This document shows, piece by piece, positions 3,885-39,967 of a stretch of DNA of 39,967 nucleotides. The translations under genes were made by a program, and so were the position numbers. The first letter of the stretch is position 1. Every line of letters begins with the position of its first letter. The DNA comes from Thermodesulfovibrio sp. (GTDB lineage Bacteria; Nitrospirota; Thermodesulfovibrionia; UBA6902), in the NCBI GenBank assembly GCA_026982355.1, contig JALSHG010000112.1:1-39967 (forward strand), given 5' to 3'. The notes below the pieces were generated by a model. The model was given only the letters and a program-made list of their open reading frames with translations. It did no database searches and was not told the DNA's origin.

Positions 3885-3906
3885 AACAGCGCCTCCCGAG
3901 AGTCGA

Positions 3907-3970
3907 CCTTGCGCCGGCGTGAAAATCCCGCCGGCGGGGCAGAGTACACTGCCCTTCTGCAACTTTAAGG
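3907..3970. repeat. Family 1 palindromic intergenic element, copy 3
   Basis: The left end CCTTGCGCCGGCGTGAAAA matches the CCTTGCAGCGGCATGAAAA version seen at 27031, and the right end CTGCAACTTTAAGG matches the usual TGCAACATTAAGG with one change. It lies immediately upstream of the ribosome-binding site of the TauE-like gene, so it is in that gene's 5' leader or promoter region. No clear target-site duplication was seen. Confidence 0.65.
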
Positions 3971-4026
3971 TTGCGTTGGATTCGACGATTCAGCTACGAT
4001 TATATCAGAAGGGCATCAAGGTTATC

Positions 4027-4395
4027 TTACGGCAACTGGTTGCGGATCTCTGCAAGAATCTCGGCATGTTCAGCCATTTTCGAGATATAAACATTCTTTC
4101 CGCCACCGGCTGTTGCCGCCTCATTCTGCATAACCATGCTGGTCAGGAAGATAACTTTAATATGTCTTGTCTTCGGGGATTCCTTCAGCCTTGCGGCCAC
4201 TTCCCCGCCGTCCATCTCGGGCATGTCCACGTCACTGATTACAAGGTCCGGCTGTTCCTCGGCTGCTATGCGTATGGCGGCCTCGCAGTTGCTTGTTGCA
4301 AAAACCAGGTATCCTTCACCTGTGAGCAATTGTTTCATCGCCCTCAGAATCGCCCTGTTGTCGTCTATGAGGAGTATCTTTTTCTGGTCCGTCAT
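4027..4395 (-). CDS. Stand-alone CheY-like response regulator
   Basis: The 122 residues form one receiver domain with no output domain. The key residues are visible: acidic pair D11-D12, phosphoacceptor D55 in SDVDMPEMDGG, T85 in FLTSM and K106 in YISKM. It would receive phosphate from a histidine kinase, but no kinase or chemotaxis gene lies nearby. It sits between uvrA and the TauE-like gene on the same strand, separated from uvrA by a family 1 repeat. Partner and output unknown. Confidence 0.9.
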   Translation of the reverse strand: MTDQKKILLIDDNRAILRAMKQLLTGEGYLVFATSNCEAAIRIAAEEQPDLVISDVDMPEMDGGEVAARLKESPKTRHIKVIFLTSMVMQNEAATAGGGKNVYISKMAEHAEILAEIRNQLP

Positions 4396-4459
4396 ATCCC
4401 CGGTCCTGCTGACAGGTCTTTTTCATTGTTTTATCGGGGTAATGCGGAAAAAACTTTAA

Positions 4460-4495
4460 CGGGGGACAGCCTGCGCCGTTTATGCAACATTAAGG
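4460..4495. repeat. Family 1 element, copy 4, forming the 3' end of uvrA
   Basis: A shortened copy with only the TTATGCAACATTAAGG end intact. TTAA occurs immediately outside both borders (4456-4459 and 4496-4499). Read on the minus strand, AACCTTAATGTTGCATAA encodes the last residues N-L-N-V-A and the TAA stop of UvrA, so the reading frame ends inside the element. Confidence 0.65.
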
Positions 4496-7200
4496 TTAAG
4501 GTGTTCTCTCAGATACCGGCCGGTGCTGGATCTTTTCTGCCTTATTATTTCTTCCGGCGTTCCCTCGGCCACTATGTATCCGCCGTTGTCCCCGCCCCCC
4601 GGGCCGAGGTCTATGATCCGGTCGGCGCTTTTTATTACATCCGGGTTGTGCTCAACGACAAGCACGGTATTGCCTGCATCCACAAGGTCATTGAGGACCC
4701 CGAGCAGTTTCCTGATGTCATCGGGATGAAGTCCCACAGTGGGCTCATCAAGTATATAGAGGAAATCCCTCCTCTTCATCACCCCGAGCTCCGCGCATAT
4801 CTTGAGGCGCTGCGCCTCCCCCCCGGAAAGGGTTGTGGCCGGCTGGCCGAGCTTCAGGTAGCCGAGCCCCACATCCGCCATTGTCTTCAGTTTATTCACC
4901 AGCCGTGGAATGCGCCTGAAAAAATCCATTGCCTCATCAACGGTGAGGTCGAGAACATCGTGTATGTTTTTTCCGTTGTAGGTGACGGCGAGTATCTCCG
5001 GTTTATACCTCCTGCCCCCGCATTCCTCGCACCTGATGTACAGGTCCTCAAAAAAGTACATCTCAAGCCGTTGATAACCGGCTCCGCTGCATGCCTCGCA
5101 GCGGCCGCCCTCGGTATTGAAGGAAAAATGTCCCGGCCCGTACCCGAGCATCCCGGCCTGCGGCTGTTCCGCAAAGAGTTTCCTTATGTGGTCGAATGCC
5201 TTTATGTATGTGACGGGATTGGAGCGCGGGCTTTTGCCGATCGGTTGCTGATCTATGATCCCGGCTCCCCTGAGGTGTTCGAGGCCGTCGATGCCCTTAA
5301 ACGGCAGGGGCGTTGCAAACTCCGTCCTGAAGTGACGGGCCAGTGCCCTGTAAATGGTGTCATTGACAATGGTGCTCTTGCCCGAACCCGAGACACCGGT
5401 GATGCATGTAAGTGTCCGCAGCGGGATGTGGACGTCTATCCCCTTGAGATTGTTTCCGGAAGCGCCCCTGACGGAAAGCACCTTGCCGCTGCCTTTCCTC
5501 CTGTATGCAGGTACCGGTATTAATTCATGGTCACTCAGGTATTCAGCAGTCAGGGTGCCGGATTTCAGAAAATCCTCTCTTGCGCCGTTATAAAGCACCC
5601 TGCCGCCCTTCCTGCCGCCCCCGGGGCCGAGCTCCACGATCCAGTCGGCGGCGTTGATGACGGTTCTGTCGTGTTCCACGGCGACAACGGTGTTGCCGGC
5701 CCCGGCAAGCTCCCTCAGTATCTCCGCAATCCGGCTCACATCACCGGGGTGAAGACCGACGGTCGGTTCATCAAGGACATACAGTGTCCCCGTCAGTTTC
5801 GATGCAAGCTGATTTGCAAGATTTATCCTCTGCGCCTCGCCGCCCGAGAGGGTCTTCATCTCCCTGCCCAGCGTCAGGTACCCTATGCCCACCCGCATCA
5901 GGAAACCGAGCTTGAGGTTGATCTGCCTGAGTATCTCGGAGGACACCTCCTGTTCGTGGCCCGACAGGTCGATATCCGCAAAAAAACCGCTCAGCCGGGC
6001 AATGGGCATCCCGGCAAGCTCCGCTATATTGAGACCCCCGAGTGTAAATGCCAGGGCCGCGGGCCTGAGCCTGTCCCCCCCGCATTTTTTACAGGTCACG
6101 GCCTTGCGGTACCTGCTGAGAAAGACCCTTACATGCAGTTTATACCGCTTGCCTTCGAGCTCCCCGAAGAAATCATCCAGGCCGTAAAAATCCGGAGCGC
6201 CCCTGAATATCAGCCTCTTTGCCTTTTCAGGCAGTTTCTTATACGGCGTCTTGAGGCTGATTCCGTGCGCCTTTGCAGCCTCGGCAAACTGCCTGTACCA
6301 CCACCTGTATGCAGGCTTGGTCCACGGCTCCACCGCGCCTTCCTCAAGAGACAGTTCCTTGTCCGGTATGATGCAGTCTTCCGAGTATTCCAGCGTATTG
6401 CCGAACCCCTTGCATTCAGGACATGCGCCAAGGGGATGGTTGAAGGAAAACAGCAGGGGCTGCGGCTTTGCCGTTTCCGTATTGCACCGGGGACATTTCA
6501 ATTCCCCTTGAAAGCGGAGGACCGTGACGTCTTGCGGCGAGTCCCCGATTATCTCCACCTTTACGCTTTTGCCCCCGTGCTCCCACGCCGTCTCAACAGA
6601 GTCGGACAGCCGCGCCTCATCCTTTATAATGAGCCTGTCGAGGATCACTTCATACCGGTAATCATCGCGGTTTTCCGTATTTTCCCTGAACCGGTGAAAG
6701 CCCTTTTTCTGCAGTTCCTCAGGCGTGCTGTTCGTGAAGAATATCACCAGCGCTCTTCTTCCCGAATGGTTTGCGACCAGCTCCCTGACCGCGGAAGACG
6801 GCGTCCACGCCTTTAACGGACTGCGGCATTGCGGGCAGTGGGGCTCTGCAATCTTTGCATAAAGCAGCCGGATGTAGTCATATATCTCGGTTGCCGTGCC
6901 CACTGTGGAACGGGAACTCTTGACCGTGTTGCGCTGTTCAATGGCGATGGCCGGTCTTATGTTGCGGATCGCCTCAACATCAGGACGGTCGAGTTTTTCA
7001 AGAAAGAGCCTTGCATAGGTGGAAAGGGATTCGATGAACCTCCACTGGCCTTCGGCAAAGATTGTATCAAAGGCCAGGGACGACTTGCCAGAGCCCGATA
7101 CGCCGGTGACGGCGATAAACCGGTTGTGCGGGAGTCTGAGGCTGATATTCTGCAGGTTGTTCTGTTTAGCGCCTTCAATAACAAGCTCGTCAATAGACAT
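4480..7200 (-). CDS. uvrA: Excinuclease ABC subunit A (UvrA)
   Basis: UvrA is the damage-recognition ATPase of nucleotide excision repair; it loads UvrB onto damaged DNA in the cytoplasm. The 906-residue protein has two ABC ATPase modules: Walker A GVSGSGKSSL near residue 33 and GVSGSGKSTI in the second half, two LSGGEAQR signatures and two DEPTVGLHP Walker B motifs. Zinc-module cysteines are visible as CPRC/CPEC in the first half and CEAC/CEEC in the second. It is slightly shorter than the usual 940 residues. The segment IEQRNTVKSSRSTVGT differs from the more common IEQKTTSHNPRSTVGT, so it may belong to a separate UvrA subgroup. Its last five codons come from a family 1 repeat. The zinc-ribbon/Tudor-like gene lies upstream on the same strand. 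Confidence 0.95.
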   Translation of the reverse strand: MSIDELVIEGAKQNNLQNISLRLPHNRFIAVTGVSGSGKSSLAFDTIFAEGQWRFIESLSTYARLFLEKLDRPDVEAIRNIRPAIAIEQRNTVKSSRSTVGTATEIYDYIRLLYAKIAEPHCPQCRSPLKAWTPSSAVRELVANHSGRRALVIFFTNSTPEELQKKGFHRFRENTENRDDYRYEVILDRLIIKDEARLSDSVETAWEHGGKSVKVEIIGDSPQDVTVLRFQGELKCPRCNTETAKPQPLLFSFNHPLGACPECKGFGNTLEYSEDCIIPDKELSLEEGAVEPWTKPAYRWWYRQFAEAAKAHGISLKTPYKKLPEKAKRLIFRGAPDFYGLDDFFGELEGKRYKLHVRVFLSRYRKAVTCKKCGGDRLRPAALAFTLGGLNIAELAGMPIARLSGFFADIDLSGHEQEVSSEILRQINLKLGFLMRVGIGYLTLGREMKTLSGGEAQRINLANQLASKLTGTLYVLDEPTVGLHPGDVSRIAEILRELAGAGNTVVAVEHDRTVINAADWIVELGPGGGRKGGRVLYNGAREDFLKSGTLTAEYLSDHELIPVPAYRRKGSGKVLSVRGASGNNLKGIDVHIPLRTLTCITGVSGSGKSTIVNDTIYRALARHFRTEFATPLPFKGIDGLEHLRGAGIIDQQPIGKSPRSNPVTYIKAFDHIRKLFAEQPQAGMLGYGPGHFSFNTEGGRCEACSGAGYQRLEMYFFEDLYIRCEECGGRRYKPEILAVTYNGKNIHDVLDLTVDEAMDFFRRIPRLVNKLKTMADVGLGYLKLGQPATTLSGGEAQRLKICAELGVMKRRDFLYILDEPTVGLHPDDIRKLLGVLNDLVDAGNTVLVVEHNPDVIKSADRIIDLGPGGGDNGGYIVAEGTPEEIIRQKRSSTGRYLREHLNLNVA

Positions 7201-13556: not shown

Positions 13557-14771
13557 ATGGCACTGGTTAACCCCCATGGGAAAGAAAAAAAGCTCAAGCC
13601 CCTTCTGCTGACGGGAGAGGAACTCGCGGAAGCAAAGGAAAAGGCGAAAACACTCACTGAGGTCAGGATGTCTTCAAGGGAGACAGGCGACCTTATAATG
13701 CTCGGCATAGGGGGATTCACTCCCCTTGAGGGTTTTATGGGGCACGACGACTGGAAAGGCGTATGCGATGAATTCAAGATGGCGGACGGCACGTTCTGGC
13801 CCATCCCGATAACCCTTTCAACGACAAAGGGCAATGCGGACAGCATCAAGGACGGCGAGGAAGTGGCCCTTGTTGATGAAGAGAGCGGCGAGATAATGGG
13901 TATCATGACCGTCCGGGAAAAATACACGATTGATAAGGAGTATGAGTGCAAACAGGTCTTCAAGACAACCGATACCGAGCATCCGGGCGTCCTGAAGGTC
14001 ATGGAGCAGGAAGAGATTAACCTTGCAGGACCTGTAAAGGTGCTGAGCGAGGGGACGTTTCCCGCGGAATACAAGGGCATATACATGACACCGGCGGAAA
14101 CCCGCAAGCGCTTTGAGGAAAAAGGCTGGTCCACCGTGGCGGCCTTCCAGACGCGTAATCCCATGCACCGCTCGCACGAGTTTCTCGCGAAAATAGCCGC
14201 GGAAGTCTGTGACGGCGTTTTCATTCACATGCTTCTTGGAAAACTGAAACCGGGCGACATCCCCGCGGATGTAAGGCAGAGAGCCATTGACGCCCTTATC
14301 GAGAACTATTTCGTCAAGGATTCCATTATGGTCGGCGGTTATCCGCTTGACATGAGATATGCGGGTCCGAGAGAGGCGCTGCTGCATGCGGTTTTCAGGC
14401 AGAATTACGGCTGCAGCCACCTGATTGTCGGGCGAGACCATGCAGGCGTCGGCGACTACTACGGTCCGTTTGACGCCCATCATATCTTTGATGAAATTCC
14501 GAAGGGCTCTCTCGAGACCCAGCCGCTGAAAATCGACTGGACATTCTGGTGCCACAAGTGTGACGGAATGGCGTCCATGAAAACCTGCCCGCACGGAAAG
14601 GAAGACAGGCTTATCCTGAGCGGCACAAAGCTCAGAAAAATGCTTTCAGAGGGTGAAGAGGTGTCGGATAAGTTCAGCAGGCCCGAGGTGCTCAAGATAC
14701 TCAGGGAATACTATGAGGGTCTGACCGAAAAAGTGGAAATCAAGATGCACAAGTATGCCGAAGGCAATTAA
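13557..14771 (+). CDS. sat: Sulfate adenylyltransferase (ATP sulfurylase)
   Basis: Interconverts ATP + sulfate and APS + PPi, the activation step of dissimilatory sulfate metabolism (reversible in sulfur oxidisers). The 404-residue homomer-type enzyme contains [10 protein letters not shown] (residues 198-207), the adenylyl-transferase HxxH region, [12 protein letters not shown] near 292, and the C-terminal [12 protein letters not shown]. The cysteines in [18 protein letters not shown] probably hold a structural zinc, as in other bacterial ATP sulfurylases. AAGGAGG precedes the ATG. Directly follows adk and precedes aprB, as in sulfate reducers. The 168-base gap to aprB contains a short palindrome GGCTTAAGTTTAAGCC (14881-14896) and no gene that I can see. 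Confidence 0.97.
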
Positions 14772-14939
14772 TGTGCAATCCTGTTTCTCCGGGACTGCAT
14801 TCCATAAGCGGGAAGGGGGTGTAAAGCAGACAGGTTGCCCGTTTCACGATAGATGAAGAAGCAGATTGCTCAGGAAATACGGCTTAAGTTTAAGCCTTGA
14901 AAACCCCAAAAGGACATATTTTGGAAAGGAGGATGTAAA

Positions 14940-15359
14940 ATGCCAAGTTTTGTAATCGCTGAAAAGTGTGACGGTTGTAAGGCACAGGACAAGACTGCAT
15001 GCCAGTATATCTGTCCCAATGACCTTATGACCCTGGACAGGGACCTGATGAAGGCCTACAATCAGGAGCCCGAGCAGTGCTGGGAGTGCTACAACTGCGT
15101 AAAGATCTGCCCGCAGCAGGCAATCGAGGTCAGGGGATACCAGGACTTCTGTCCGCTGGGAGCCAGTGTTATCCCTCTCAGGGGAACCGACTCGATAATG
15201 TGGACGATCAAGTTCAGAAACGGAGTGCTGAAGAGGTTCAAGTTCCCCATCAGGACGACCCCTGAAGCTTCCATTGAACCATATGCCGGCAAGCCGGAAG
15301 CGGATATGTCAAAGATAAAAGAACCTGGATTCTTTAACTACGAAGCCAGGAAAGAATAA
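14940..15359 (+). CDS. aprB: APS reductase beta subunit
   Basis: Iron-sulfur subunit of dissimilatory adenylylsulfate reductase; passes electrons between the Qmo complex and FAD in AprA. The 139-residue protein has two [4Fe-4S] ligand sets: C10-x2-C13-x7-C21-x3-C25-P and C47-x2-C50-x2-C53-x3-C57-P. Trp48, between the clusters, corresponds to the conserved tryptophan described for electron transfer in the Archaeoglobus enzyme. The C-terminal tail (from about residue 100) is the segment that wraps AprA in known structures. GGAGG lies upstream of the ATG; aprA begins 16 bases after the stop. Cytoplasmic. Confidence 0.97.
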   Translation: MPSFVIAEKCDGCKAQDKTACQYICPNDLMTLDRDLMKAYNQEPEQCWECYNCVKICPQQAIEVRGYQDFCPLGASVIPLRGTDSIMWTIKFRNGVLKRFKFPIRTTPEASIEPYAGKPEADMSKIKEPGFFNYEARKE

Positions 15360-15374
15360 AAAGGAGGGATGACG

Positions 15375-17384
15375 ATGGAAAAAGAAACATGTACTTTTTC
15401 ATACTGTGCAAAGCCGGAAATCGTTGAGGTCGACACTGATCTGCTTCTCATCGGCGGCGGCATGGCATGCTGCGGAGCTGCTTATGAAGCGGTCCGGTGG
15501 GCGGCTCCGAAAGGCCTGAAGATCACAATGGTTGATAAGGCTGCGACAGACAGAAGCGGCGCGGTGGCAATGGGCCTGTCGGCTATCAACACGTACATCG
15601 GTGAAAATAAAGTCGAAGATTATGTGAGGTACGTAAGGGGCGACCTTATGGGTATCACAAGGGACGACCTTGTATTCGACCTCGGCAGGCACGTCGACAA
15701 CAGCGTGCACATGTTTGAAGAATGGGGCCTGCCGATCTGGAAAAAAGGCGACGACGGTTTCTCTCTCGACGGCTTCCAGGCAAAGGACGCAGGCAAGGCG
15801 AAGCTGGCTGACGGCGGAACTCCCGTGCGCTCCGGTAAATGGCAGATAATGATCAACGGCGAGTCCTACAAGGCGATAGTGGCAGAGGCCGCAAAAAAGG
15901 CGCTTGAGGAAAACAGGAAGGCCACCGGCGTTGACCAGAACCACTTTGAAAGGGTTTTCATTGTGAGGCTCTTTAAAGACGCCAATGATCCCAAGAGGGT
16001 GGCCGCGGCGGTCGGTTTCAGCGTCAGGGAACACAAGATGTACATATTCAAGGCCAAGGCAATGGTGCTCGCCGCCGGCGGCGCTGTTAACGTCTTCAGG
16101 CCGAGATCAACCAAGGAAGGCCAGGGCAGGGCGTGGTACCCTGTATGGAACTCCGGCTCAGGTTATGCGCTCGGCATGCAGGCAGGCGCGGAGCTGACGC
16201 TCATGGAGAACCGTTTCGTTCCCGCAAGGTTCAAGGACGGATACGGGCCTGTCGGCGCATGGTTCCTGTTCTTCAAGGCAAAGGCAACCAACAGCATTGG
16301 CGAGGACTACTGTGCAAACGAGGAATATGTTGCCGATGCAAAGAAGAAATACGGCGCATACGTGGACAAGATGGGCACTGCCATCAGAAACCACCTGATG
16401 ATGCAGGACATGAAGGCCGGTAAAGGGCCCATCATCATGAGGACACACGAGGCCATGGATGCCATCAACAAGTCTTTCATCGAGAAACTCGGTGAAAAGG
16501 AAGGCAAGAAGAAGGTCAAGCATCTTGAGGCCGAGGCATGGGAGGACTTCCTCGATATGTGCATCGGACAGGCGGGCCTCTGGGCGGCCAGGAACGTGGA
16601 GCCCGACAAGGTGCCGTCGGAGATCATGCCCACAGAGCCTTATATCCTCGGCTCGCATGCAGGCTGCGCGGGATTCTGGTGCAGCGGCCCCGGCGATATT
16701 CCGGGCACACCCGAGGACTGGCACTGGGGTTACAACAGGATGTCGACGGTTCCAGGACTCTTCATGGCCGGTGACATCTGCGGCGCATCAGGGCACAAGT
16801 TCTCTTCAGGTTCGCACGCAGAGGGAAGGATCGCCGGAAAGGCTGCAATAGCCTTTATACTGGATCATCCCGACTATGTGCCGACACCGAGGAAGACCGC
16901 CGACGAGATGGCGGCCGAGCTGTACCTGCCGTATGAAGTTTACGAGAAACACAAAACCTACTCCACCGATCCCGAAGTGAATCCGAATTACATCAAGCCG
17001 AGCCTGCTGCAGGCAAGGCTGCAGAAGATCGCGGACGAGTATTTCGGTGGAATCTCCACATGGTACATGACATCAAAGACCATGCTGGAAGAGGGTCTGA
17101 AACAGCTCGCTATGCTCAAGGAGGATTCCGCGAAGATGGGAGCAAGCAACCTGCACGAGCTCATGAGGTGCTGGGAAAACTACCACAGGATTCTCTCTCT
17201 CGAGGCACACGCCCGTCATATCCTCTTCAGGGAGGAGACCAGGTATCCGGGCTACTACTACAGGGGCGACCACGACTATATAGATGATGAGAACTGGAAG
17301 GTCTTCACGTGCTCCACATACAACATGGAAACCGGCGAATTCACAATGAGCAAGAGGCCGCACAAGAACGTATTCCCTGATTAA
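15375..17384 (+). CDS. aprA: APS reductase alpha subunit
   Basis: FAD-containing catalytic subunit that converts APS to sulfite and AMP (or the reverse). The 669-residue protein opens with the FAD-binding LLLIGGGMACCGAAYEA, followed by the fumarate-reductase-type fold. The substrate region carries NRFVPARFKDGYGPVGA and the GSHAGCAGFWCSGPGDI stretch, both characteristic of AprA, and the conserved C-terminus ends RPHKNVFPD. Start: the ATG at 15375 is 7 bases after AAGGAGG; an ATG at 15369 is too close to that site. Follows aprB and is followed by a strong hairpin. Confidence 0.97.
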   Translation: MEKETCTFSYCAKPEIVEVDTDLLLIGGGMACCGAAYEAVRWAAPKGLKITMVDKAATDRSGAVAMGLSAINTYIGENKVEDYVRYVRGDLMGITRDDLVFDLGRHVDNSVHMFEEWGLPIWKKGDDGFSLDGFQAKDAGKAKLADGGTPVRSGKWQIMINGESYKAIVAEAAKKALEENRKATGVDQNHFERVFIVRLFKDANDPKRVAAAVGFSVREHKMYIFKAKAMVLAAGGAVNVFRPRSTKEGQGRAWYPVWNSGSGYALGMQAGAELTLMENRFVPARFKDGYGPVGAWFLFFKAKATNSIGEDYCANEEYVADAKKKYGAYVDKMGTAIRNHLMMQDMKAGKGPIIMRTHEAMDAINKSFIEKLGEKEGKKKVKHLEAEAWEDFLDMCIGQAGLWAARNVEPDKVPSEIMPTEPYILGSHAGCAGFWCSGPGDIPGTPEDWHWGYNRMSTVPGLFMAGDICGASGHKFSSGSHAEGRIAGKAAIAFILDHPDYVPTPRKTADEMAAELYLPYEVYEKHKTYSTDPEVNPNYIKPSLLQARLQKIADEYFGGISTWYMTSKTMLEEGLKQLAMLKEDSAKMGASNLHELMRCWENYHRILSLEAHARHILFREETRYPGYYYRGDHDYIDDENWKVFTCSTYNMETGEFTMSKRPHKNVFPD

Positions 17385-17405
17385 TCCGGGGAGACGGTAT
17401 AAATT

Positions 17406-17432
17406 CTCCGGGCGCACCCGCGGCGCCCGGAG
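17406..17432 (+). terminator. GC-rich stem-loop between aprA and qmoA
   Basis: CTCCGGGCGC pairs perfectly with GCGCCCGGAG around a 7-base loop, followed by AGTTATTTAAG. With no solid T-run it may be a partial terminator that sets the ratio of Apr to Qmo, or may stabilise the upstream mRNA. The following 140 bases up to qmoA show no gene and only weak promoter-like sequence. Confidence 0.6.
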
Positions 17433-17575
17433 AGTTATTTAAGTTATTAAGGGCGGCAGATAAATCCTTTTAATCCCAATATAAAACACTGTCAAAAGCC
17501 GAGCCGGTTGTAGTAGACTATAGGGCCACACCCGCTTGATAACTTAAGTAACTCTGTCATAAATGGAGGCATAGC

Positions 17576-18841
17576 ATGTCAGAACAGGAAACAAACATTT
17601 TGGTTGTAGGCGGCGGTATAAGCGGACTGACCACTGCCGTGGAGGCGGCGGAAGCCGGCTACAATGTCGTGCTGATAGAAAAAGAGCCTTTTCTCGGAGG
17701 CAGGGTCGCAAGGATGAATAAATATTTCCCCAAGCTCTGCCCCCCTGCATGCGGTCTGGAAATAAACTACAGGAGGATAAAGTTCAGTGACCGCATCACC
17801 TTCCATACCCTTGCGGAAGTGGAAAAGATCACCGGGCAACCCGGCGACTACGAGGTAACGGTAAAGGCGGGGGCGCGGTATATTAATGACAAGTGCACCG
17901 GATGCAACGCCTGCACGGAGGTCTGTCCCGTGGAAACCCCCAATGACTTCAACGGAGGCCTTGACAAGAGAAAGGCCGCCTATATCTATCACCAGCAGGT
18001 ATTCCCCTTCCAGTATGTAATAGACGGCTCGGTATGCAAAAAAGAGGCGTGCGCCAAATGCAAGGAGGCGTGCAAATACGATGCGATCGATTTCACCATG
18101 AAACCCGAGAGCTTTGTCGTCAAGACCGGCGCCATTGTTCTGGCAACGGGCTGGAAGCCGTACGATGCCTCGAAAATGGACAATCTGGGCTTCGGCACGA
18201 GCAAAAACATAATCTCCAATGTGATGATGGAAAGGCTCGCCTCGCAGAACGGTCCGACCGGCGGCAGGATAGTAAGGCCGTCGGACGGAAAGGAGGCCAA
18301 AAGGGTTGCCTTTGTCCAGTGCGCGGGATCAAGGGATGAGAACCACCTTGCCTTCTGCTCCGCGGTGTGCTGCCTTGCATCACTGAAGCAGGCGACATAT
18401 GTCAGGGAGCAGTATCCTGACTCAAAGGCATACATGTTCTACATAGATATCCGGACACCCGGAACCTCGTACGAGAGATTCCTGAACAAGGTGCGGGAGG
18501 ATGAAAATATCTCCCTGATAAAGGGCAAGGTGGCAAAGGTCTATGAAGACCCCGCAACAGGCGACGTCATCGTCGAGGCTGAAGACATCCTTGCCGGGAA
18601 GAAAATAAAGGTTTCCGTGGATCTCTGTGTTCTTGCCACGGGCATGCAGCCGACGGTTTCCGAGATGAAGCTTCCCCCGGAAGTAAAGATAAACGAAAAC
18701 GGTTTTGTGGTTGCGGACAGCACCCGGAAGGGGATATACGCAGTCGGCTGCGCCAAGGACCCCGTAGATGTTTCGAAATCCGTCCAGGGAGCTACAGGGG
18801 CTGCTCTTAAAGCTATTCAGACAGTGGGGAGGAAAGCCTAA
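17576..18841 (+). CDS. qmoA: QmoA, quinone-interacting oxidoreductase subunit A
   Basis: A flavoprotein related to HdrA and part of the Qmo complex, which links the membrane quinone pool to APS reductase. The 421 residues start with an FAD-binding ILVVGGGISGLTTAVEAAEAG and carry FLGGRVARMNKYFPKLCPPACG, a Qmo/HdrA signature. Cysteine sets CTGCNACTEVCP (near residue 105) and CKKEACAKCKEACKYDAIDF indicate iron-sulfur ligands. GGAGG lies just upstream of the ATG. Its TAA stop overlaps the qmoB ATG by one base, so the two are translationally coupled. Cytoplasmic face of the membrane complex. Confidence 0.93.
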   Translation: MSEQETNILVVGGGISGLTTAVEAAEAGYNVVLIEKEPFLGGRVARMNKYFPKLCPPACGLEINYRRIKFSDRITFHTLAEVEKITGQPGDYEVTVKAGARYINDKCTGCNACTEVCPVETPNDFNGGLDKRKAAYIYHQQVFPFQYVIDGSVCKKEACAKCKEACKYDAIDFTMKPESFVVKTGAIVLATGWKPYDASKMDNLGFGTSKNIISNVMMERLASQNGPTGGRIVRPSDGKEAKRVAFVQCAGSRDENHLAFCSAVCCLASLKQATYVREQYPDSKAYMFYIDIRTPGTSYERFLNKVREDENISLIKGKVAKVYEDPATGDVIVEAEDILAGKKIKVSVDLCVLATGMQPTVSEMKLPPEVKINENGFVVADSTRKGIYAVGCAKDPVDVSKSVQGATGAALKAIQTVGRKA

Positions 18842-21081
18842 TGGAAAAGAAGATCGGAGTTTATATTTGCAAAGGCTGCGACATCGCAAATGCAGTTGAA
18901 ATAGAAAAACTCGAGGAAGTGGCTGTAAAGGAACATCAGATACCGGTGTGCAAATCGCACGATGCGCTGTGCAGTCCCGGGGGGCTCGACCTGATAAAGA
19001 ACGACATAAGCGCAGAGGTTGTGAACACTATAGTCATTGCCGCGTGCTCGCCGAGGGTGAAGTACAGGGAGTTCAGCTTTCCCGGCAATGTTGTTGAACG
19101 GTCGAATATAAGGGAATTTGTCGCATGGACGCAGGAGCCCAAGACCGAGGATACACAGGCGCTGGCTGAAGACTATATGAGGATAGGTATCACAAAGGCA
19201 AAAAACAGCGAACTCCCCGAGCCGTTCCTGCTTGAAGAAATGGACAAGTCGGTACTGGTTGTCGGCGGCGGCATATCAGGCATGACCTCCGCGCTCGGCG
19301 CCGCCGATGCCGGCTACAACGTCATACTTGTTGAAAAACAGGAAGAGCTCGGAGGCTGGGCGAAAAAGATGCACAGGCAGTTGCCCCGGAGCTATCCGTT
19401 TGAGTCACCGGAGAAACCCACGGTCAATGATACCATTGACAGGGTCAGGGCCCATTCCAATATAAAGGTCTTCACTTCCTCGGAGATAGAAAAGATTTCC
19501 GGAGTGCCGGGCATGTACGACGTCTCCATAAAGACCGCGGGCGGCACGGAGCAGGTCAAGGCAGGCTCCGTTATACTGGCTGCCGGCTGGAGGCCGTATG
19601 ACGCCTCCAAACTGGAGCACCTCGGCTACGGGAAGTGCGAGAACGTTATAACGAACATACAGATGGAGGAGATGGCCGCGGAAGGCGGTATCACGAGACC
19701 ATCCGACGGCAGGAAGGCAAAGAGGGTGGCATTTATCCAGTGCGCCGGTTCAAGGGACCCCGGGCACCTTCCTTACTGTTCCTCCGTATGCTGTCTCACG
19801 TCGTTAAAGCAGGCATCCTACGTAAGGGAAAGCGCCCCGGATGCAATCGCCTACATTTTATACAAGGACATGAGAACCCCCGGCCAGTATGAGCTGTTTT
19901 ACAAGAAGATGCAGGACGACCCCGGGATCATGCTCACAAAGGGCGAGGTCGTCGATGTCACGGAGGGTGCCAACGGCAATGTGGAGATCACGCTGAAGGA
20001 TACATTCCTTGGAGAGAGCATAAAGCTGGAGGCCGACCTGGTTGTGCTTGCCACAGGCATGGTTCCCAACACAACGATTGACTCCGACGTGCTTGGGGAG
20101 TGGAAAAAGAAGTTCGACGAGGAACTCGCGGCCTCGGGCGGCAAGCCGGACCCCAACGCCCCGCTTGAGCCTCACAAGGTGCCCAATATCCTTCATCTCG
20201 AATACAGGCAGGGCCCCGAGCTTCCGCAGCTTACAGAGGCATACGGTTATCCGGATTCGAACTACATATGCTTTCAGTATGAGACACGCAGAACCGGGAT
20301 TTATGCAGCGGGCAGCATAAGACAGCCCATGCACATGCTCGGCAGCATAGAGGACGCAATGGGCGCAAGCCTTAAGGCCATACAGTGTATCGAGGCCACG
20401 GCGAACGGCTATGCAGTGCATCCGAGGGCGTGGGACCAGACCTACCCCGAGGTCAATCTCCAGAAGTGCACCTCGTGCAAGAGATGTACGGAGGAGTGCC
20501 CGTTCGGCGCGATCGAGGAGGATGAAAAAGGCACGCCGTTTCACAAGATGACCCGCTGCCGCAGATGCGGCACATGTCTCGGCTCCTGCCCTGAAAGGGT
20601 CATCAACTTCAAGGACTTCAGCATCAACATGATATCATCGATGTTCAAGGCCCTGGATGTGCCGGAAGAGGGCCTGAGGCTCATCGGGCTTGCGTGTGAA
20701 AACGATGCTTATCCGGCGCTGGATTCGCTTGCGCTGGACCGCTCCAGGATGAACCCCGCGTACAGGTTTGTCCCGGTCAGATGCCTCGGCAACCTCAACC
20801 TCGCGTGGATCGCCGATGCCCTGTCCCGGGGGATCGACGGTATGATCCTGCTGGGATGCAAGTTCGGCGAAAACTACCAGTGCCATTTCGTACGGGGCAG
20901 TGAGCTTGCCAGCGAGAGACTCGGCAAGTTGCAGGAGACGCTCGGAAGGCTTATGCTCGAGCCCGAGAGGGTGAAACTGGTACAGCTTTCCATACAGGAA
21001 TACGACCTGCTGCCGGGGATACTGGATGAGTTTGCGGACGAGCTGGGCGAGATGGAACCGAATCCGTTTAAAGAGTTTTAA
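18841..21081 (+). CDS. qmoB: QmoB, flavin/iron-sulfur subunit with MvhD-like domain
   Basis: A 746-residue HdrA-like flavoprotein. An N-terminal HdrA-like region precedes the FAD site VLVVGGGISGMTSALGAADAG (near residue 139). Two ferredoxin motifs follow late in the protein, CTSCKRCTEECPFGAI and CRRCGTCLGSCPERVI, then a C-terminal MvhD/FrhD-like domain with LIGLACENDAY, RCLGNLNLAWI and LLGCKFGENYQCH, which in methanogens carries a [2Fe-2S] cluster between hydrogenase and heterodisulfide reductase. Together with QmoA it forms the soluble part of the complex. Translation is coupled to qmoA. Confidence 0.93.
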   Translation: MEKKIGVYICKGCDIANAVEIEKLEEVAVKEHQIPVCKSHDALCSPGGLDLIKNDISAEVVNTIVIAACSPRVKYREFSFPGNVVERSNIREFVAWTQEPKTEDTQALAEDYMRIGITKAKNSELPEPFLLEEMDKSVLVVGGGISGMTSALGAADAGYNVILVEKQEELGGWAKKMHRQLPRSYPFESPEKPTVNDTIDRVRAHSNIKVFTSSEIEKISGVPGMYDVSIKTAGGTEQVKAGSVILAAGWRPYDASKLEHLGYGKCENVITNIQMEEMAAEGGITRPSDGRKAKRVAFIQCAGSRDPGHLPYCSSVCCLTSLKQASYVRESAPDAIAYILYKDMRTPGQYELFYKKMQDDPGIMLTKGEVVDVTEGANGNVEITLKDTFLGESIKLEADLVVLATGMVPNTTIDSDVLGEWKKKFDEELAASGGKPDPNAPLEPHKVPNILHLEYRQGPELPQLTEAYGYPDSNYICFQYETRRTGIYAAGSIRQPMHMLGSIEDAMGASLKAIQCIEATANGYAVHPRAWDQTYPEVNLQKCTSCKRCTEECPFGAIEEDEKGTPFHKMTRCRRCGTCLGSCPERVINFKDFSINMISSMFKALDVPEEGLRLIGLACENDAYPALDSLALDRSRMNPAYRFVPVRCLGNLNLAWIADALSRGIDGMILLGCKFGENYQCHFVRGSELASERLGKLQETLGRLMLEPERVKLVQLSIQEYDLLPGILDEFADELGEMEPNPFKEF

Positions 21082-21180
21082 GCGCTTGAAATGAAGTGTC
21101 AGCGCTGATAAGGTGCAGTGAAAGCGAAAAACCCGACACTCACAAAAAATCTCTGGTCGAAAAGACTTATGGAGGAATAA

Positions 21181-22371
21181 ATGGTCGATGCAACATTAGT
21201 AAAACCCGATCTGGATTTCGTAAAGGGAGTTATCGCCGCAGGGGGCGAATCCCTGAAGAAGTGCTACCAGTGCGCCACCTGCACAGTGGTCTGTAACGTC
21301 ACTCCTGAAGAAAATCCTTTTCCCAGAAAGGAGATGGTCTGGGCCCAGTGGGGACTGAAGGAAAAGTTCCAGGGCAATCCCGACGTCTGGCTCTGCCACC
21401 AGTGCAATGACTGCACGGCTTACTGCCCGAGGGGCGCAAAGCCGGGAGAGGTGCTGGGCGCCATAAGAAAACAGAGCATCAGGGAGTATTCCGCCCCGGA
21501 CTTCCTCGTGGATTTGGTGAATGACAAAAAATTCATGGCCCTCCTGTTTATAGCGCCGGCCATCCTGTTGGCGGTGGTTATCGCAGCTTTCGGCAATTTC
21601 GGAATTCCCGGGGGAGAGGTGGTGTTTACAAAATTCCTGCCGGTTCTGCCAATCCAGTTGATATTCACGCCCGCGCTGATATTCGGGATCGCGGTGGGCG
21701 TGCTGGGGGTCAAAAAGTTCTGGGTTGATATGAAGCGGGCCAACGGCGTCAGGACAGGCGACCTGAAGGGCAGCGTTATAGAGACGGCGAAAGAGGTGCT
21801 TGCCCATAAGAAGTTCAAGAGCTGCGGTATAAACGCCGACAGATACGCATCGCATCTCCTCGTCTTTTACAGCTTTGTCGCACTGGGAATCGCCACACTG
21901 ATAGGCGCCCTTTACATCGATATCCTGCACATAGAGTCGCCGTTCTCCTTCGGCCGCGGCACACTCGTGAAACTCTTCGGAAATGCAGGCGCCATAGCCC
22001 TCCTTGTCGGTGTTACCATGATGATCACCAACAGGTTCAAACACCAGGAAAAATTAGGGCTGGGAAGCTATTTCGACTGGCTCCTCCTGTGTATCATCGC
22101 CACTGTCGCCCTCTCGGGGTTTCTCGCGCAACTGACAAGGATAGCGGGAGCCGCCGCCATAGCTTATCCCATTTATTTCATACATCTTGTGTTTGTGCTG
22201 TCCCTTTTCATCTATCTGCCGTTCTCCAAGCTTGCCCATATGTTCTACAGGGGAGCGGCGATGTGCTTCATGAAATATTCAGGGAGAGAGGCGCAGCAGG
22301 CGGCTGCTGTTTCAACCACGCCCGGGACAGGGCAGTCATCAGGGCCGGGCAAGGAAACAGGCAGTGAATAA
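21181..22371 (+). CDS. qmoC: QmoC, membrane cytochrome b/iron-sulfur subunit
   Basis: A 396-residue fusion: an HdrC-like N-terminus with CYQCATCTVVCNVTP (near residue 28) and CHQCNDCTAYCPRGAKPGEV (near 68) for two [4Fe-4S] clusters, then an HdrE/NarI-like membrane part with about six hydrophobic helices from residue 115 on, including histidines that could bind heme b. It anchors QmoAB and exchanges electrons with menaquinone. The low-complexity C-terminus (AVSTTPGTGQSSGPG) is likely flexible. GGAGG lies a few bases before the ATG. The 99-base gap after qmoB holds a minor AGCGCT hairpin only. Confidence 0.93.
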   Translation: MVDATLVKPDLDFVKGVIAAGGESLKKCYQCATCTVVCNVTPEENPFPRKEMVWAQWGLKEKFQGNPDVWLCHQCNDCTAYCPRGAKPGEVLGAIRKQSIREYSAPDFLVDLVNDKKFMALLFIAPAILLAVVIAAFGNFGIPGGEVVFTKFLPVLPIQLIFTPALIFGIAVGVLGVKKFWVDMKRANGVRTGDLKGSVIETAKEVLAHKKFKSCGINADRYASHLLVFYSFVALGIATLIGALYIDILHIESPFSFGRGTLVKLFGNAGAIALLVGVTMMITNRFKHQEKLGLGSYFDWLLLCIIATVALSGFLAQLTRIAGAAAIAYPIYFIHLVFVLSLFIYLPFSKLAHMFYRGAAMCFMKYSGREAQQAAAVSTTPGTGQSSGPGKETGSE

Positions 22372-34066: not shown

Positions 34067-34081
34067 CCGTGCGGCGCTATC
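34062..34081. terminator. Small hairpin between convergent lysS and giant gene
   Basis: GATAGC pairs with GCTATC around an 8-base loop and overlaps both stop codons in a 10-base convergent gap. It is short and lacks T-runs, so a bidirectional terminator role is only a possibility. Confidence 0.3.
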
Positions 34082-37000
34082 GCGTTCCGGCAACACCATA
34101 ATAAGACCTTTCCTCCCATATCCTGAGGAGGCCGTCCACCAGCAGCCGTGCTTCTGCTATATCCGCGCTTGTTATGGAGACAAGGGAGTCTATGGCTTTC
34201 AGTATGTCATGTATGTTTTTGTCTGTGTCCTCTTTTGTGGCCGGTTCTCTGTCTTGGGTGTTCTGTATGTATCTTATGGCATTGTCCAGTTTTTGTCTGT
34301 CTCTGTCTGATACTGAAAGGTTCTTCAGGGTATCAAGGATGTTATTTGTTATTGTGGCTATATCTCTGTCAATGATTATATCTAAATTGAGGCTCTGGTA
34401 GAATTTGTAATCCCCTTCTTCAAGATATTCTACTTCTGTCTGAAGTGTGTATGTGCCTGTTTTGTCAGGTGTGAGGGCATAGTAAAGAATGCTCTTTGTT
34501 TCATCTGGCTCTAAGTGCAGCTCTGTCTGCCATGGGTTTTGTGTTATCCATTGGCCTGTGGTGGGGTCAAGGAGTTTGAGTTCTACAGGGTATGTCTCTG
34601 TTATTCTTAGGTCAAAGGCTGCTCCAAGGCTTCTGAGTTTTATCTCTACTGGAATCATTTGATAGGGGTAAAGGGTATTTGTGTCTATGGGCTTGTGTAT
34701 ATATGTGATGGAGTTCTTTATGAGTTCCGAGAGTTGCTTAAGGTTCTGTTCTGTAATGGATTTCCCTAAATCAAAGGCATAGAAGATTGTTCTGCCATTA
34801 CCATATTCATTGAGGATTATTGCAGGATATTTTGCTTCTTCATCTTTGTATCCTGTATCCTGTCTTCTATGCTCTGTCTTACTTGTCCATCCTGCTATTA
34901 TGGTGTCTTCTTTTGCCTCTACTTTTATTGCTTTTCCTTTGGCTTCAAGTGTCCCTGCCTCTGAGATCGGGCTGTCAAGTAGTTCAATTTCATGTTCATC
35001 TCCTGATAGGTATCCCTTAAATCTAATGCCAAATAGCGGGTCATAATCCTCTCTATGATGTTCCCCATGTTTTACCCGGAGTATTGATATAAGCCCTTTG
35101 CCTGAATATATCTGTTCTCTGAGTTCTTTGTAGTAATGGTCTTCCAAGGGATGATGATTACCGATAATCAGGAAGTCGGTGTAGTAGGGGTTTCTCAATT
35201 CTCTCTGAAAGTCTTTTTTGTCATAGACTATGTGGTAGCTTGTGGATGCCTCTGTGAGTATGTCTTTTAGCAGGTCAAGCCTGAGGCGTTTTTCATCAGT
35301 GCATTTTTTCTGTTCACTGTCTCTATAGTGTTTCTCCTGTCTCCTGTCTTTTGCCTCTTGCCTCCTGCCTCCTTCACATTTCTCATTCACCCATACAAGG
35401 AGATTGGTGACATCAGGGATTGTCTTTGTTACTTCTATGCCCGGTTTTACTTCAAAGGTTGTGCTTGCTAAGGTCCTGGGTTCTGGCATTGAGGATGTGG
35501 ATGCCTGAAGAATAGCTAAATAGATTTTAGGTGAAAGGTTTAAGGTTGATATGGTGCGTATCTCTGTAATCGTCTCTTCTTTGTTTAATGGATACTGACT
35601 GCTGAATTCTGTCTTTGTCTCCTGTGTATCCGGGTCAACTATGAGAACCTTTGCAGTGAGGTTGTCAATGTCTTCATTGCCGTTGTTTGTGATTGTGTAA
35701 GTGATGGTCTCTTGTTTTCTCTGATAACCCGGGTCCGGTGAGGCTGTGATTGTGCCTGTTATGCCTTCACCTGTCTGAGATGTGCCGGGGATTTCAAAGG
35801 TTGTTTGGGATGTGCTGAGGGTTGTCGTGCCTTCAAGAACCTCAAGATTTACTGTATATGTGCCTTTGGGGTTTTGGGATGTATTCCAGTAGGTTTTGGT
35901 TTCTGTCAGTTGGTTTGGGGTAAGGATTGGTATGGTGTTTGTCTCGGTATAAAGGGTTTCTCCCTGACTACTGACTACTGATACCTCTGCTACCAAGTTT
36001 TCAAAGATGTAATTCGGGCTTGTGCTCTGGATGGTGGAGGTGATGGTAACTGTCTGGTTTGGGTTATATTGTGTTTTGTCTGTGGTGACTTTTGAAGTTA
36101 CTGTCTTTTCTGGAAGTATTGTGAAATTGGCTGTATCCTCTGTAAGGAATATCCCGTCTTCATATAGCTCTGCTCTGACAAGGTAATCTCCTGAAAGGGT
36201 TGTGCCTGTGTTCCATGTGAATGTGAAGGTCTGGGTTGAGAATGGGCTAAGGTTGTCTACCTGGAATTCCGCCACTTCAGCTACAATGTCGCCTTCTGTG
36301 TCTTCTATGGTAATCCGTGCCGTCATGTCCATCGCCTGAGGGCTGATGTTGGTTATGGTGGTTGTTATGTCTACATCTTCATTTGCTGTGTATTCTTCTT
36401 TATCTGTGGTCACATCTATTGATACAGGAGATATGCCTGTAACAGTTGGTATCTCTATGGGAATGGTTATGGTCTCTCCTGTATATGTGTTTGTGAAGGT
36501 TAACTCTGCAGATGCAGCAACCTTTCTTGTCTCGCCAGGCAGGAGGGAATTAAGGATTAAATCAAGGGCTATATCTTTGCCTTCCTCCATGACTCCAAGT
36601 AACTTCCAGTGGTAATTGCCATCACTTGAATCTGTGGGAATAGGGTTGGAGGAGTTAAGGGCTACATCATCAGGAAAGGTAAGATATATATCTGTGTCTA
36701 TTCCACCAATCCTTTCAAAGGCAATTGGTAATGAAATTATTACCCAGGTGGTTGTGGCGAGTCTGGTGTTTAATATGCCGTTCTGGCTATACCAGGAACC
36801 ATCTGGCGCCTGATTGTTCAAGAGAAAGACCGTGGCATTTCTCAGCGCTGTATCTTCCTTACTTACATCAGCCTTTGCCATCGCATAAAGTACCTTCGCT
36901 GTGACCAGAGAGTCACTTACATTGCTGGTATATCTACCCCACCCTCCATCTGCTCTCTGGGAGGTCTTCATCTGAGAAATGGCTGTGTTGATGACATTAG

Positions 37001-39967
37001 TGATCTGCTCCCTCAAGGTCGGCTCTGTAATAACCGATAAAGCAGCTTCAAGACCAATAACCTGATGAGCCATGAGCATATTATTGGTGTTTGACACAAG
37101 GTTAGGTGTCAAAAGATATTGAACAGCCTTTGTAAGGGATGTAAGATACTTAGTGTCTTTGCTTAAACTATAAGCCTTTGAAATGCCAATTACAGTAATT
37201 GCTGTTGCAGAAGTCCTTGAGCCCCACCAGCCGGAACAATGGTCGCATGTCCATGAACCATCAGATGACTGCTTGCTTAGCAGATAGTCCGCAGATTTGA
37301 GGATATACGGCGTTGCTTCGTTTTCATCATGCCATGAGGTGTAAGCCCAGAGAGCAAGCTGCGTCTGCGTGTTTACATAGCTGTAAATGTATGGAGATGA
37401 TGTTACTGAGCCATTAGGTTTCTGCCATCCCTTGAAGGCATTAAATAGAGTTTGGGTCACACTTGAGTCAATCGTTGCCTTTGCACTTGAAATTTCGAGC
37501 CCATAAAGTGCCTGGCTTTGCACATGACAACCATAACATTTCTTTGTATTATGCCATGTCATAACAGCTGGTTGTTCATAATTGACCCCTCTCTGTATCG
37601 CATCCTTTATCAACGGCACTAAGGGGTCATGTGTTGTGCCTGTGGCTGCTTTGATTCCTGTTATGTGAATGTTTCCTTTTATTTTTACATCTCCAGGGAA
37701 TGCTTTATCAGGGGTTACTGTGAATGTGGCGGTTGCATGGGGACCTACATAGAGGACTGTTGAGATGTCTGATGTTATTGTTTCATCTGCTGGTTTAAGG
37801 GTTATGAGGTAGTTGCCACCTTCTTGCGGTATGAAGCTTCCAAAACCAATCTCTTGTATGTTATTCACCTGAAGTCCTGTTATTGCTGCTTCTGCTGAAT
37901 AAACTGTTGTTTCGTTTAAGGATGCCTCAAGTGTGAGGGTTGTGGTTATCGGTATATTCCCTGTATTTCTTATGGCTGCTGTGATTTCTACAGGTATCTG
38001 CATGTCTGCCTGGGTTACTGGTGGACTCAGGGCTATTGAGCCTCTGATTGCTGGTGTTGGAGTTATGGTTACAGATACTGCCCTTTCAGCAAGCACATCG
38101 CCTGTAGGGTTTTGACGGCTGACTGTTTCAGGGTCTGTGACCATTAATGTTATGAGATACTCTGCCGGTGAGAACTGTCCTGTGTTCCATTGTATTTCAG
38201 CTTGAATGCTCTCTGAAGGGGCAAGGGTTATGTCAGGCTCTGTGGATGATACAAGGGCTATTACATTGCCTCCAACATCCTGTATCTCTGCCATTACAAT
38301 GCCCTGTGCTTCTGTGTCTGCCTGATTCTCTATTGTTGCTGTAATGATGACATTTTCATTAGCCTGATAGCTCTGTTTGTCTGTGCTTAAAGACGTTATT
38401 CTCAGGTCACTCACCTGACTTGGTGTCAGCTCAAAGTCTACTGTGTATTCTCCATAAGCAGTTGTACTGATGCTATATGTGAGGCTGTCATAACCCGTGG
38501 CTGATGCCTTTATGGTAAATTCTAAAAGGGTTATACCTGAAATGGTGTATGTGCCATCAAAATCTGTCTTTGTAGATAGCTCTGTCCCTATCACTGCTAC
38601 ATCTGCATTTGCTATTGGTTCGCCAGTTGAGGCATCTGTGACTGTTCCTGTTATGGTTGTGCTCGTTGGTGAAGGCGTAAGATAGATTGTCTGCATGTCT
38701 GTTGTAACACCTGCTATTATTATCACTTGATAGCTCTGGCTTATGTATCCTGAGGCTGTAATAGCTACCTCATATGTGTCAGGTGTTATGTCTTCTATAA
38801 GGAAGACCCCTTGTGTATCTGTGCTTGTAGATATTTTGTCTGTAAGGGAGATTGTTGCACCTTGAATTGGCTCGTTTGTAGAGCTATCAAAGACCCTTCC
38901 TGTAAGATTGCCTGTTGTTGGCGGAGGAGGTTGTGTGCTTAACTGAGGATTAAAGAACAATATACCTCCTGCCACAATTTCACCTGTGCCTGCAACTGTG
39001 TAGTAGCCTGTCTTTTCTGCTGTAATGGTTACACTGCCAGGGGTTACATTTGTAATGATAAAGCTTCCATCTGTATCTGTAATAGTGCTGCCACTAAATG
39101 AGCCTGTTACGGTAATTGTCACTCCTTCAATAGGCTGAGCAGTGTCTGCATCGGTTACTGTGCCTTTTATGATGCCTGTTATTGGCTCTGGTGTTGTTGT
39201 GCTTAGTGTTGGGTTGAAAAATAGTATGCCCCCTGCTACTACCTCTCCAGTCCCTGTGACTGAATAGTAACCTGCCTTTTCTGCTGTTATGGTTACACTG
39301 CCAGGAGTGATATTTGTAAAGATAAAACCTCCCTCTGTGCCTGTTGTTGTGCTTCCACTGAAAGAGCCTGTTACGGTGATTGTCACTCCTTCAATGGGCT
39401 GACCAGTGCCTGCATCGGTTACTATGCCCTTTATTATGCCTGTTGTCGGGTCTGTTGAAAGTGGTATGGTTCCAATGTCTGTTATAGAGCCTGCTACAAT
39501 GTCCACCGTTACTGTAGCTGTTGTGTAGCCTGTTAAACTGAACTCTATTGTCTGGCTTCCTTCTGGAATATCAGAAAGGGTAAAGTCTCCAGTAGCTGTT
39601 GTAGTTGCTGACAACTGACCACTGACTACTGACACTCCTTCTAACGGCTGATTTGTGGATGCATCCACAACTGTGCCTGTCACTGTTCCTGTGGTTGGCT
39701 CTAATGGCGGAGGGGGTTTGCTTTCTGAAAGATAAAGTGCCCTTATGGCTAAGGCTGTTGAATAAGGGTCGTCATTCCAGCTACCATTAGGCAATTGAGA
39801 AGTTGTCAGGTAATTAACTGCATTTCCAAGCACCGTTGCATCTGTTATTTCACCAACCAAAGCTATATATGCTTGTGAGTGCCGTTTTTTTACCAAGCAA
39901 GACTTTCCCCTGGGCCCTTTTAAAATATCATATAAACCATAAGAAACAGCGATGAAATACAATAAAA
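34077..39967 (-). CDS. Giant mosaic extracellular-type protein with cyclase-like and CxxCH domain (5' partial)
   Basis: At least 1961 residues, open at the right edge. Residues counted from 39962: one squalene-cyclase/prenyltransferase-like repeat at 40-78 (TSQLPNGSW); five carboxypeptidase-regulatory-like modules at about 92-169, 174-254, 262-342, 350-429 and 436-513; Ig/CARDB-like repeats to about 760; a larger alpha-helical cyclase-like domain at about 765-1110 with QW-type motifs (KQSSDGSW, SQRADGGW, NQAPDGSW) and a c-type heme motif C809-YG-C812-H813; further Ig-like repeats; a glutamine-amidotransferase-like segment around 1505-1720; and a helical C-terminus. It is probably secreted or surface-bound, but the signal peptide would lie outside the window. 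The first 30 visible residues fit poorly and might reflect a frameshift near an A-run at 39888-39894. Base composition is clearly AT-richer than its neighbours. Function unknown. Confidence 0.75.
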   Translation of the reverse strand, partial: LLYFIAVSYGLYDILKGPRGKSCLVKKRHSQAYIALVGEITDATVLGNAVNYLTTSQLPNGSWNDDPYSTALAIRALYLSESKPPPPLEPTTGTVTGTVVDASTNQPLEGVSVVSGQLSATTTATGDFTLSDIPEGSQTIEFSLTGYTTATVTVDIVAGSITDIGTIPLSTDPTTGIIKGIVTDAGTGQPIEGVTITVTGSFSGSTTTGTEGGFIFTNITPGSVTITAEKAGYYSVTGTGEVVAGGILFFNPTLSTTTPEPITGIIKGTVTDADTAQPIEGVTITVTGSFSGSTITDTDGSFIITNVTPGSVTITAEKTGYYTVAGTGEIVAGGILFFNPQLSTQPPPPTTGNLTGRVFDSSTNEPIQGATISLTDKISTSTDTQGVFLIEDITPDTYEVAITASGYISQSYQVIIIAGVTTDMQTIYLTPSPTSTTITGTVTDASTGEPIANADVAVIGTELSTKTDFDGTYTISGITLLEFTIKASATGYDSLTYSISTTAYGEYTVDFELTPSQVSDLRITSLSTDKQSYQANENVIITATIENQADTEAQGIVMAEIQDVGGNVIALVSSTEPDITLAPSESIQAEIQWNTGQFSPAEYLITLMVTDPETVSRQNPTGDVLAERAVSVTITPTPAIRGSIALSPPVTQADMQIPVEITAAIRNTGNIPITTTLTLEASLNETTVYSAEAAITGLQVNNIQEIGFGSFIPQEGGNYLITLKPADETITSDISTVLYVGPHATATFTVTPDKAFPGDVKIKGNIHITGIKAATGTTHDPLVPLIKDAIQRGVNYEQPAVMTWHNTKKCYGCHVQSQALYGLEISSAKATIDSSVTQTLFNAFKGWQKPNGSVTSSPYIYSYVNTQTQLALWAYTSWHDENEATPYILKSADYLLSKQSSDGSWTCDHCSGWWGSRTSATAITVIGISKAYSLSKDTKYLTSLTKAVQYLLTPNLVSNTNNMLMAHQVIGLEAALSVITEPTLREQITNVINTAISQMKTSQRADGGWGRYTSNVSDSLVTAKVLYAMAKADVSKEDTALRNATVFLLNNQAPDGSWYSQNGILNTRLATTTWVIISLPIAFERIGGIDTDIYLTFPDDVALNSSNPIPTDSSDGNYHWKLLGVMEEGKDIALDLILNSLLPGETRKVAASAELTFTNTYTGETITIPIEIPTVTGISPVSIDVTTDKEEYTANEDVDITTTITNISPQAMDMTARITIEDTEGDIVAEVAEFQVDNLSPFSTQTFTFTWNTGTTLSGDYLVRAELYEDGIFLTEDTANFTILPEKTVTSKVTTDKTQYNPNQTVTITSTIQSTSPNYIFENLVAEVSVVSSQGETLYTETNTIPILTPNQLTETKTYWNTSQNPKGTYTVNLEVLEGTTTLSTSQTTFEIPGTSQTGEGITGTITASPDPGYQRKQETITYTITNNGNEDIDNLTAKVLIVDPDTQETKTEFSSQYPLNKEETITEIRTISTLNLSPKIYLAILQASTSSMPEPRTLASTTFEVKPGIEVTKTIPDVTNLLVWVNEKCEGGRRQEAKDRRQEKHYRDSEQKKCTDEKRLRLDLLKDILTEASTSYHIVYDKKDFQRELRNPYYTDFLIIGNHHPLEDHYYKELREQIYSGKGLISILRVKHGEHHREDYDPLFGIRFKGYLSGDEHEIELLDSPISEAGTLEAKGKAIKVEAKEDTIIAGWTSKTEHRRQDTGYKDEEAKYPAIILNEYGNGRTIFYAFDLGKSITEQNLKQLSELIKNSITYIHKPIDTNTLYPYQMIPVEIKLRSLGAAFDLRITETYPVELKLLDPTTGQWITQNPWQTELHLEPDETKSILYYALTPDKTGTYTLQTEVEYLEEGDYKFYQSLNLDIIIDRDIATITNNILDTLKNLSVSDRDRQKLDNAIRYIQNTQDREPATKEDTDKNIHDILKAIDSLVSITSADIAEARLLVDGLLRIWEERSYYGVAGTR
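34847..34880. repeat. Heptamer tandem array inside the giant gene
   Basis: On the plus strand: TGTATCC TGTATCC TGTCTTC TATGCTC TGTCTTA, a 7-base period. It encodes a charged stretch EHRRQDTGYKDEE within the amidotransferase-like segment. Confidence 0.55.
35334..35373. repeat. Heptamer tandem array inside the giant gene
   Basis: On the plus strand: CTCCTGT CTCCTGT CTTTTGC CTCTTGC CTCCTGC CTCC, a 7-base period. It encodes GGRRQEAKDRRQEK, a basic stretch that interrupts the amidotransferase-like segment. Confidence 0.65.
35964..35986. repeat. Heptamer tandem array inside the giant gene
   Basis: On the plus strand: CTGACTA CTGACTA CTGATAC, a 7-base period. It encodes VSVVSSQ in an Ig-like repeat. 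Confidence 0.5.
39608..39636. repeat. Heptamer tandem array inside the giant gene
   Basis: On the plus strand: CTGACAA CTGACCA CTGACTA CTGACAC, a 7-base period. It encodes VSVVSGQLS in the first carboxypeptidase-regulatory-like module, nearly the same residues as the array at 35964. Confidence 0.6.

Follow-up and report, generated by a model that had tools for sequence, protein, structure and literature searches.

Besides the toroid-bearing giant proteins of the same class (described further below), three kinds of described proteins come closest to the domain reported here. Squalene-hopene cyclases and class II terpene cyclases (PF13243, PF13249) resemble it in being alpha/alpha toroids with QW motifs, but the domain lacks their DxDD, consists of a single toroid, carries a CxxCH at its N-terminus and, with 48.5 of 322.7 bits, stays well short of the curated cyclase cut-offs. 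The TED domains of A2M and complement proteins (PF07678) are likewise 12-helix toroids lying beside Ig-like or MG-like domains, and the CxxCH falls roughly at their thioester position in an alignment that is itself non-significant; their CxEQ is missing here and the neighbouring domains are different. With the c-type cytochromes the domain has in common the CxxCH, signal-peptide-like starts (seen in relatives) and the presence of the assembly machinery, whereas its fold is a toroid, it matches no cytochrome fold and none of the cytochrome c families in Pfam or NCBIfam, and a conserved distal ligand is absent. A search of the literature for CxxCH or heme together with squalene-cyclase-type domains returned nothing relevant.

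Architecture of the giant protein

The window, i.e. the whole stretch of DNA that was analysed (39,967 nucleotides), is an entire contig (C112) of a 2.6 Mb genome of Thermodesulfovibrio sp. The domain lies in a giant reading frame at one end of it. The features are listed below, with residue numbers counted in the open-ended frame; G082, G104 and other such labels denote further Nitrospirota genomes.

34077..39965, minus strand: open-ended giant ORF of 1962 codons, truncated on its 5' side by the edge of the contig
39870..39967, minus strand: 98 bp identical to contig C66 of the same genome (repeat or assembly-graph overlap), making ORF residues 1-32 unreliable
39720..39872, minus strand: last part of an N-terminal QW toroid that has no CxxCH; in G104 this toroid is present in full and follows a signal-peptide-like start
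38418..39689, minus strand: about five carboxypeptidase-regulatory-like repeats (PF13620, 5 stretches, 2.5e-60)
37761..38408, minus strand: CARDB/Ig-like domains preceding the toroid, boundaries approximate (Pfam; ~70% identical to G082)
36699..37631, minus strand: CxxCH alpha/alpha toroid, residues 779-1089, 12 predicted helices (Pfam and predicted structure)
37524..37538, minus strand: CYGCH (C810, C813, H814), a candidate site for heme c attachment, where helix 2 begins
36816..37493, minus strand: mosaic block, the toroid body (~41% identity to G082 vs ~70% in the flanks; synonymous sites saturated)
35445..36635, minus strand: CARDB/MG2-like Ig array (Pfam; part ~36% identical to other giants of the class)
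34689..35447, minus strand: ThuA/class-I-amidotransferase-like domain, residues 1507-1759, a weak match

The listed start of the frame, a TTG giving 1961 aa, is not the true N-terminus of the giant gene, since the frame continues past the end of the contig and its terminal 98 bp are common to C66. The C66 copy (15222-15319) lies near the end of that contig and diverges from the window on the gene side, and the identity could reflect a repeat, a mobile-element end or an assembler k-mer overlap. Because of this shared stretch, ~32 codons at the start of the frame cannot be safely assigned to the gene; homology of the relatives begins at residue ~32. A search of the other contigs for the missing N-terminus did not find it.

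A preliminary description had placed a CxxCH heme motif at the start of a cyclase-like segment with QW-type repeats, in a chain that also contained carboxypeptidase-regulatory-like modules, Ig-like repeats and an amidotransferase-like fold. Most of this was borne out. C-Y-G-C-H is encoded exactly at 37538..37524 on the minus strand (the residues then numbered 809-813 are 810-814 in the open-ended frame), four QW-like motifs are present in the toroid (at approximately residues 848, 899, 1003 and 1052), and Pfam assigns it to the squalene-cyclase type (SQHop_cyclase_C, 1.8e-13; TED_complement, 6.7e-8), besides recovering the five regulatory-like repeats and the CARDB/Ig-like domains. The amidotransferase-like fold fared less well: a ThuA match does exist, but it is weak both in the window (E=0.048) and in the G104 homologue (E=0.004), below the Pfam cut-off in each case.

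Structures were predicted with AlphaFold2 from three-row alignments, a procedure in which the heme is not placed. Twelve helices were obtained for the window toroid (pLDDT 87, pTM 0.88) and also for its relative in G243 (pLDDT 80, pTM 0.85), and in both models the CxxCH forms the start of helix 2, which by the general plan of such toroids would be the mouth of the ring. The best PDB matches of the window model were drimenyl diphosphate synthase and squalene-hopene cyclases, those of the G243 model complement C5/TED domains. Neither identity could be retained: a terpene cyclase was ruled out by the absence of DxDD from all three toroids (window, G082 and G243), and a thioester domain by the absence of CxEQ (the sequences read CHVQ, CHVQ and CHVT). 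A search of the window's genome for an A2M domain gave no match.

The CxxCH motif and its candidate heme

The 1962-residue frame contains just seven Cys, and a CxxCH arises in 1e-4 (about 1 in 10,000) of composition-preserving shuffles of its residues. Profile searches covering 396, 270 and 230 genomes (overlapping draws) gave matches through the CxxCH part in G082 (49% identity over the toroid) and G243 (24%, from another class) and in no other of those genomes, with a profile match of E=2.5e-16 among the members. The reverse search, from the G243 protein against 395 genomes, returned only itself and G082 (4.9e-13) at E<=1e-8. Scans of genome contigs added a single hit, WGEZ01000057 of Nitrospirae isolate S146_64, which appears to be identical with the G082 contig, and searches of plasmids and viral contigs found no CxxCH relatives. 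Three members of the CxxCH toroid, all from Nitrospirota and from fragmented assemblies, are known from these searches.

Conservation in homologues was an obvious check on the motif, and C, C and H are kept in 3/3 of the full-length members found in this phylum, including the distant G243 protein; a V after the CxxCH and a Gln four residues past the His are also retained in both relatives. Among residues of ligand type (Cys, His, Met, Lys, Tyr), only C810, C813, H814 and Y894 are invariant. A distal ligand conserved in homologues, which had been expected to support heme binding, did not appear: the three aligned sequences share no invariant His, Met or Lys apart from H814, so that nothing supports a six-coordinate heme whose distal ligand is common to the members. 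Five-coordinate hemes do not require a conserved distal ligand.

Export was the other natural check. The window's own N-terminus lies off the contig, but Sec-like starts could be recognised by eye in two relatives. In G104 the N-terminal toroid is complete and is preceded by MKRVLLTLTLSVVLLIAIAATAYG, which looks like a typical signal peptide, and the start of the G243 protein is similar; the giant protein is probably exported. Proteins of the Cytochrom_C_asm family are present in 4/4 genomes (the window's and those of the relatives), and on C66 of the window's genome a CcsA-like gene adjoins a ResB gene, an arrangement of the System II type; other cytochrome c assembly proteins are encoded there in addition. 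Heme attachment by bacterial CcsBA in vitro depends on a short sequence that includes CXXCH and requires nothing beyond it (PMC8112865). Any CxxCH that is exported is therefore a likely substrate, and the toroid, if exported, would be expected to acquire heme. The conservation of C, C and H together with the assembly proteins of the genome favours a single, covalently bound heme c in the toroid, which is our best reading of the candidate site and, on the sequences at hand, a moderately probable one.

The same residues could instead form a zinc half-site, or a redox-active or structural CxxC disulfide at the mouth of the barrel, and we regard this as unlikely. The missing distal ligand would agree with it, as would a second CxxC in the window (C907-D-H-C910, in the loop between helices 5 and 6), but this second pair is missing from both G082 and G243. 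An adjacent His conserved together with both Cys is a heme c signature, and an exported CxxCH in a cell with cytochrome c assembly proteins again speaks for heme rather than for metal or disulfide.

Some copies appear damaged, and the toroid and its gene might be decaying, as what remains of a giant adhesin-like protein whose CxxCH no longer has a use. A Mutator-family (IS256-like) transposase gene (L022, G082:C57, 4378-5619) splits the frame of the G082 homologue in two. In G104 the second toroid is present only in its C-terminal half, fused out of frame to the point where the Ig domain before it ends, the frames joining at 'YVG' / 'AAQYL' with a frameshift (L023, around 10784, minus strand); the CxxCH half is missing either through a real deletion or through an assembly error. 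The contig also ends within the window's gene. Such decay is nevertheless improbable, as the window frame stays open over all 1930 reliable codons and its pre-toroid part, at dN 0.21 against dS 1.02 in comparison with G082, is under purifying selection.

A thioester-like role, with C813-H-V-Q816 standing for the CxEQ of A2M/complement TED and making covalent bonds to targets, shares the fold class, the complement C5 match of the G243 model, the TED_complement match in Pfam and a profile alignment that sets C813 and Q816 on the Cys and Gln of the class's A2M thioesters, but it is very improbable and was rejected after that comparison, made against A2M proteins from the same class, the profile match being non-significant (probability 0.2%, E=0.3), the Glu absent, the Gln replaced by Thr in G243, the first Cys and the His invariant though a thioester needs neither, and the genuine A2Ms of the class carrying C[LM]EQ.

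If the toroid does bind heme c, an exported six-hairpin alpha/alpha toroid, with the fold of squalene cyclases and the complement TED, would hold one covalent heme, attached via C810 and C813 and ligated proximally by H814, where helix 2 begins and hence towards one opening of the ring. The toroid would be a module of a giant surface or periplasmic protein laid out as a conserved N-terminal toroid, carboxypeptidase-regulatory-like and Ig arms, a variable middle, and a conserved Ig and C-terminal part. The heme would serve electron transfer or redox sensing, and the variable body of the toroid may be the part that binds a partner or ligand. The combined proposal, a heme c domain built on a squalene-cyclase/TED toroid, with the heme at the ring mouth at about the place of the TED thioester and the whole a module that is exchanged among mosaic giant surface proteins, is a tentative one. 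The earlier suggestion of an extracellular redox or adhesion protein with the barrel as binding scaffold remains plausible, but the evidence points rather to an exchangeable module of a mosaic giant.

Were the heme attached, a common helical ring fold would have gained a covalent redox cofactor, something unrecorded in the Pfam and NCBIfam models and PDB sequences searched. CxxCH-bearing toroid proteins may occur also in Planctomycetes and Verrucomicrobia, in which case the domain would be more widespread, and less of a novelty, than these searches show.

Mosaic structure and variation among the giants

Amino acid identity between the window and G082 is 70% before the toroid and 73% around the CxxCH, drops to 41% over residues 825-1035 (the body just after the CxxCH), and rises again to 63% at the end of the toroid and 72% after it. 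Synonymous difference increases from 0.56 outside to 0.83 within the block, where 17% of four-fold sites are identical vs 50% in the flanks. In G082 the GC3 of the block is 0.70 vs 0.48 in its flanks (Fisher p = 1.8e-9; for the window, p = 0.02). Faster evolution of the protein would by itself leave synonymous change and GC3 unaffected, so the simplest reading of this pattern is that the toroid body was exchanged by recombination between relatives, with the replacement most likely on the G082 side. The mosaic illustrates how a block can be exchanged within a giant bacterial protein, a putative cofactor site being kept while the ring body is replaced. The GC3 of the window's giant gene (~0.3-0.5) is lower than that of its neighbours (0.66-0.72), which suggests acquisition from elsewhere, although the composition of repeat-rich proteins can also differ.

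Other giants of the class, in G001, G562 and G077 (frames of 2,300-3,030 aa), have like the window an N-terminal toroid ending in NGSWNxxPYSTA and an Ig block ~36% identical to the window's. Their middles are different: G077 and G562 have a second, large toroid that lacks CxxCH, and G001 has repeats that by eye resemble FG-GAP/VCBS. No CxxCH was present in the stretches read from these three. As related giants keep their ends and vary their middle, the CxxCH toroid appears to be one rare option among exchangeable middle modules. The distant G243 protein has another architecture altogether, with 678 aa comprising the signal-peptide-like start, the CxxCH toroid, a weak DUF4215 match and HYR.

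An exported transglutaminase-like protein (PF01841) is encoded next to the G104 giant gene (L023, G104:C9:75000-89527, 3843-6998, minus strand), and a frame near the G077 giant (L089, G077:C13, 12436-14976, minus strand) has the same GW[T]GCGYI motif, so that transglutaminase-like and giant toroid genes are possibly a recurrent pair. We do not claim a conserved pair, because the window's genome has only a weak relative of the transglutaminase-like protein, located elsewhere than the giant gene. On the same contig as the giant gene, positions 13557-22371 of the window carry genes of dissimilatory sulfur metabolism, namely ATP sulfurylase, the APS reductase beta subunit, and FAD/Fe-S subunits resembling APS reductase alpha and the Qmo complex (all by Pfam).
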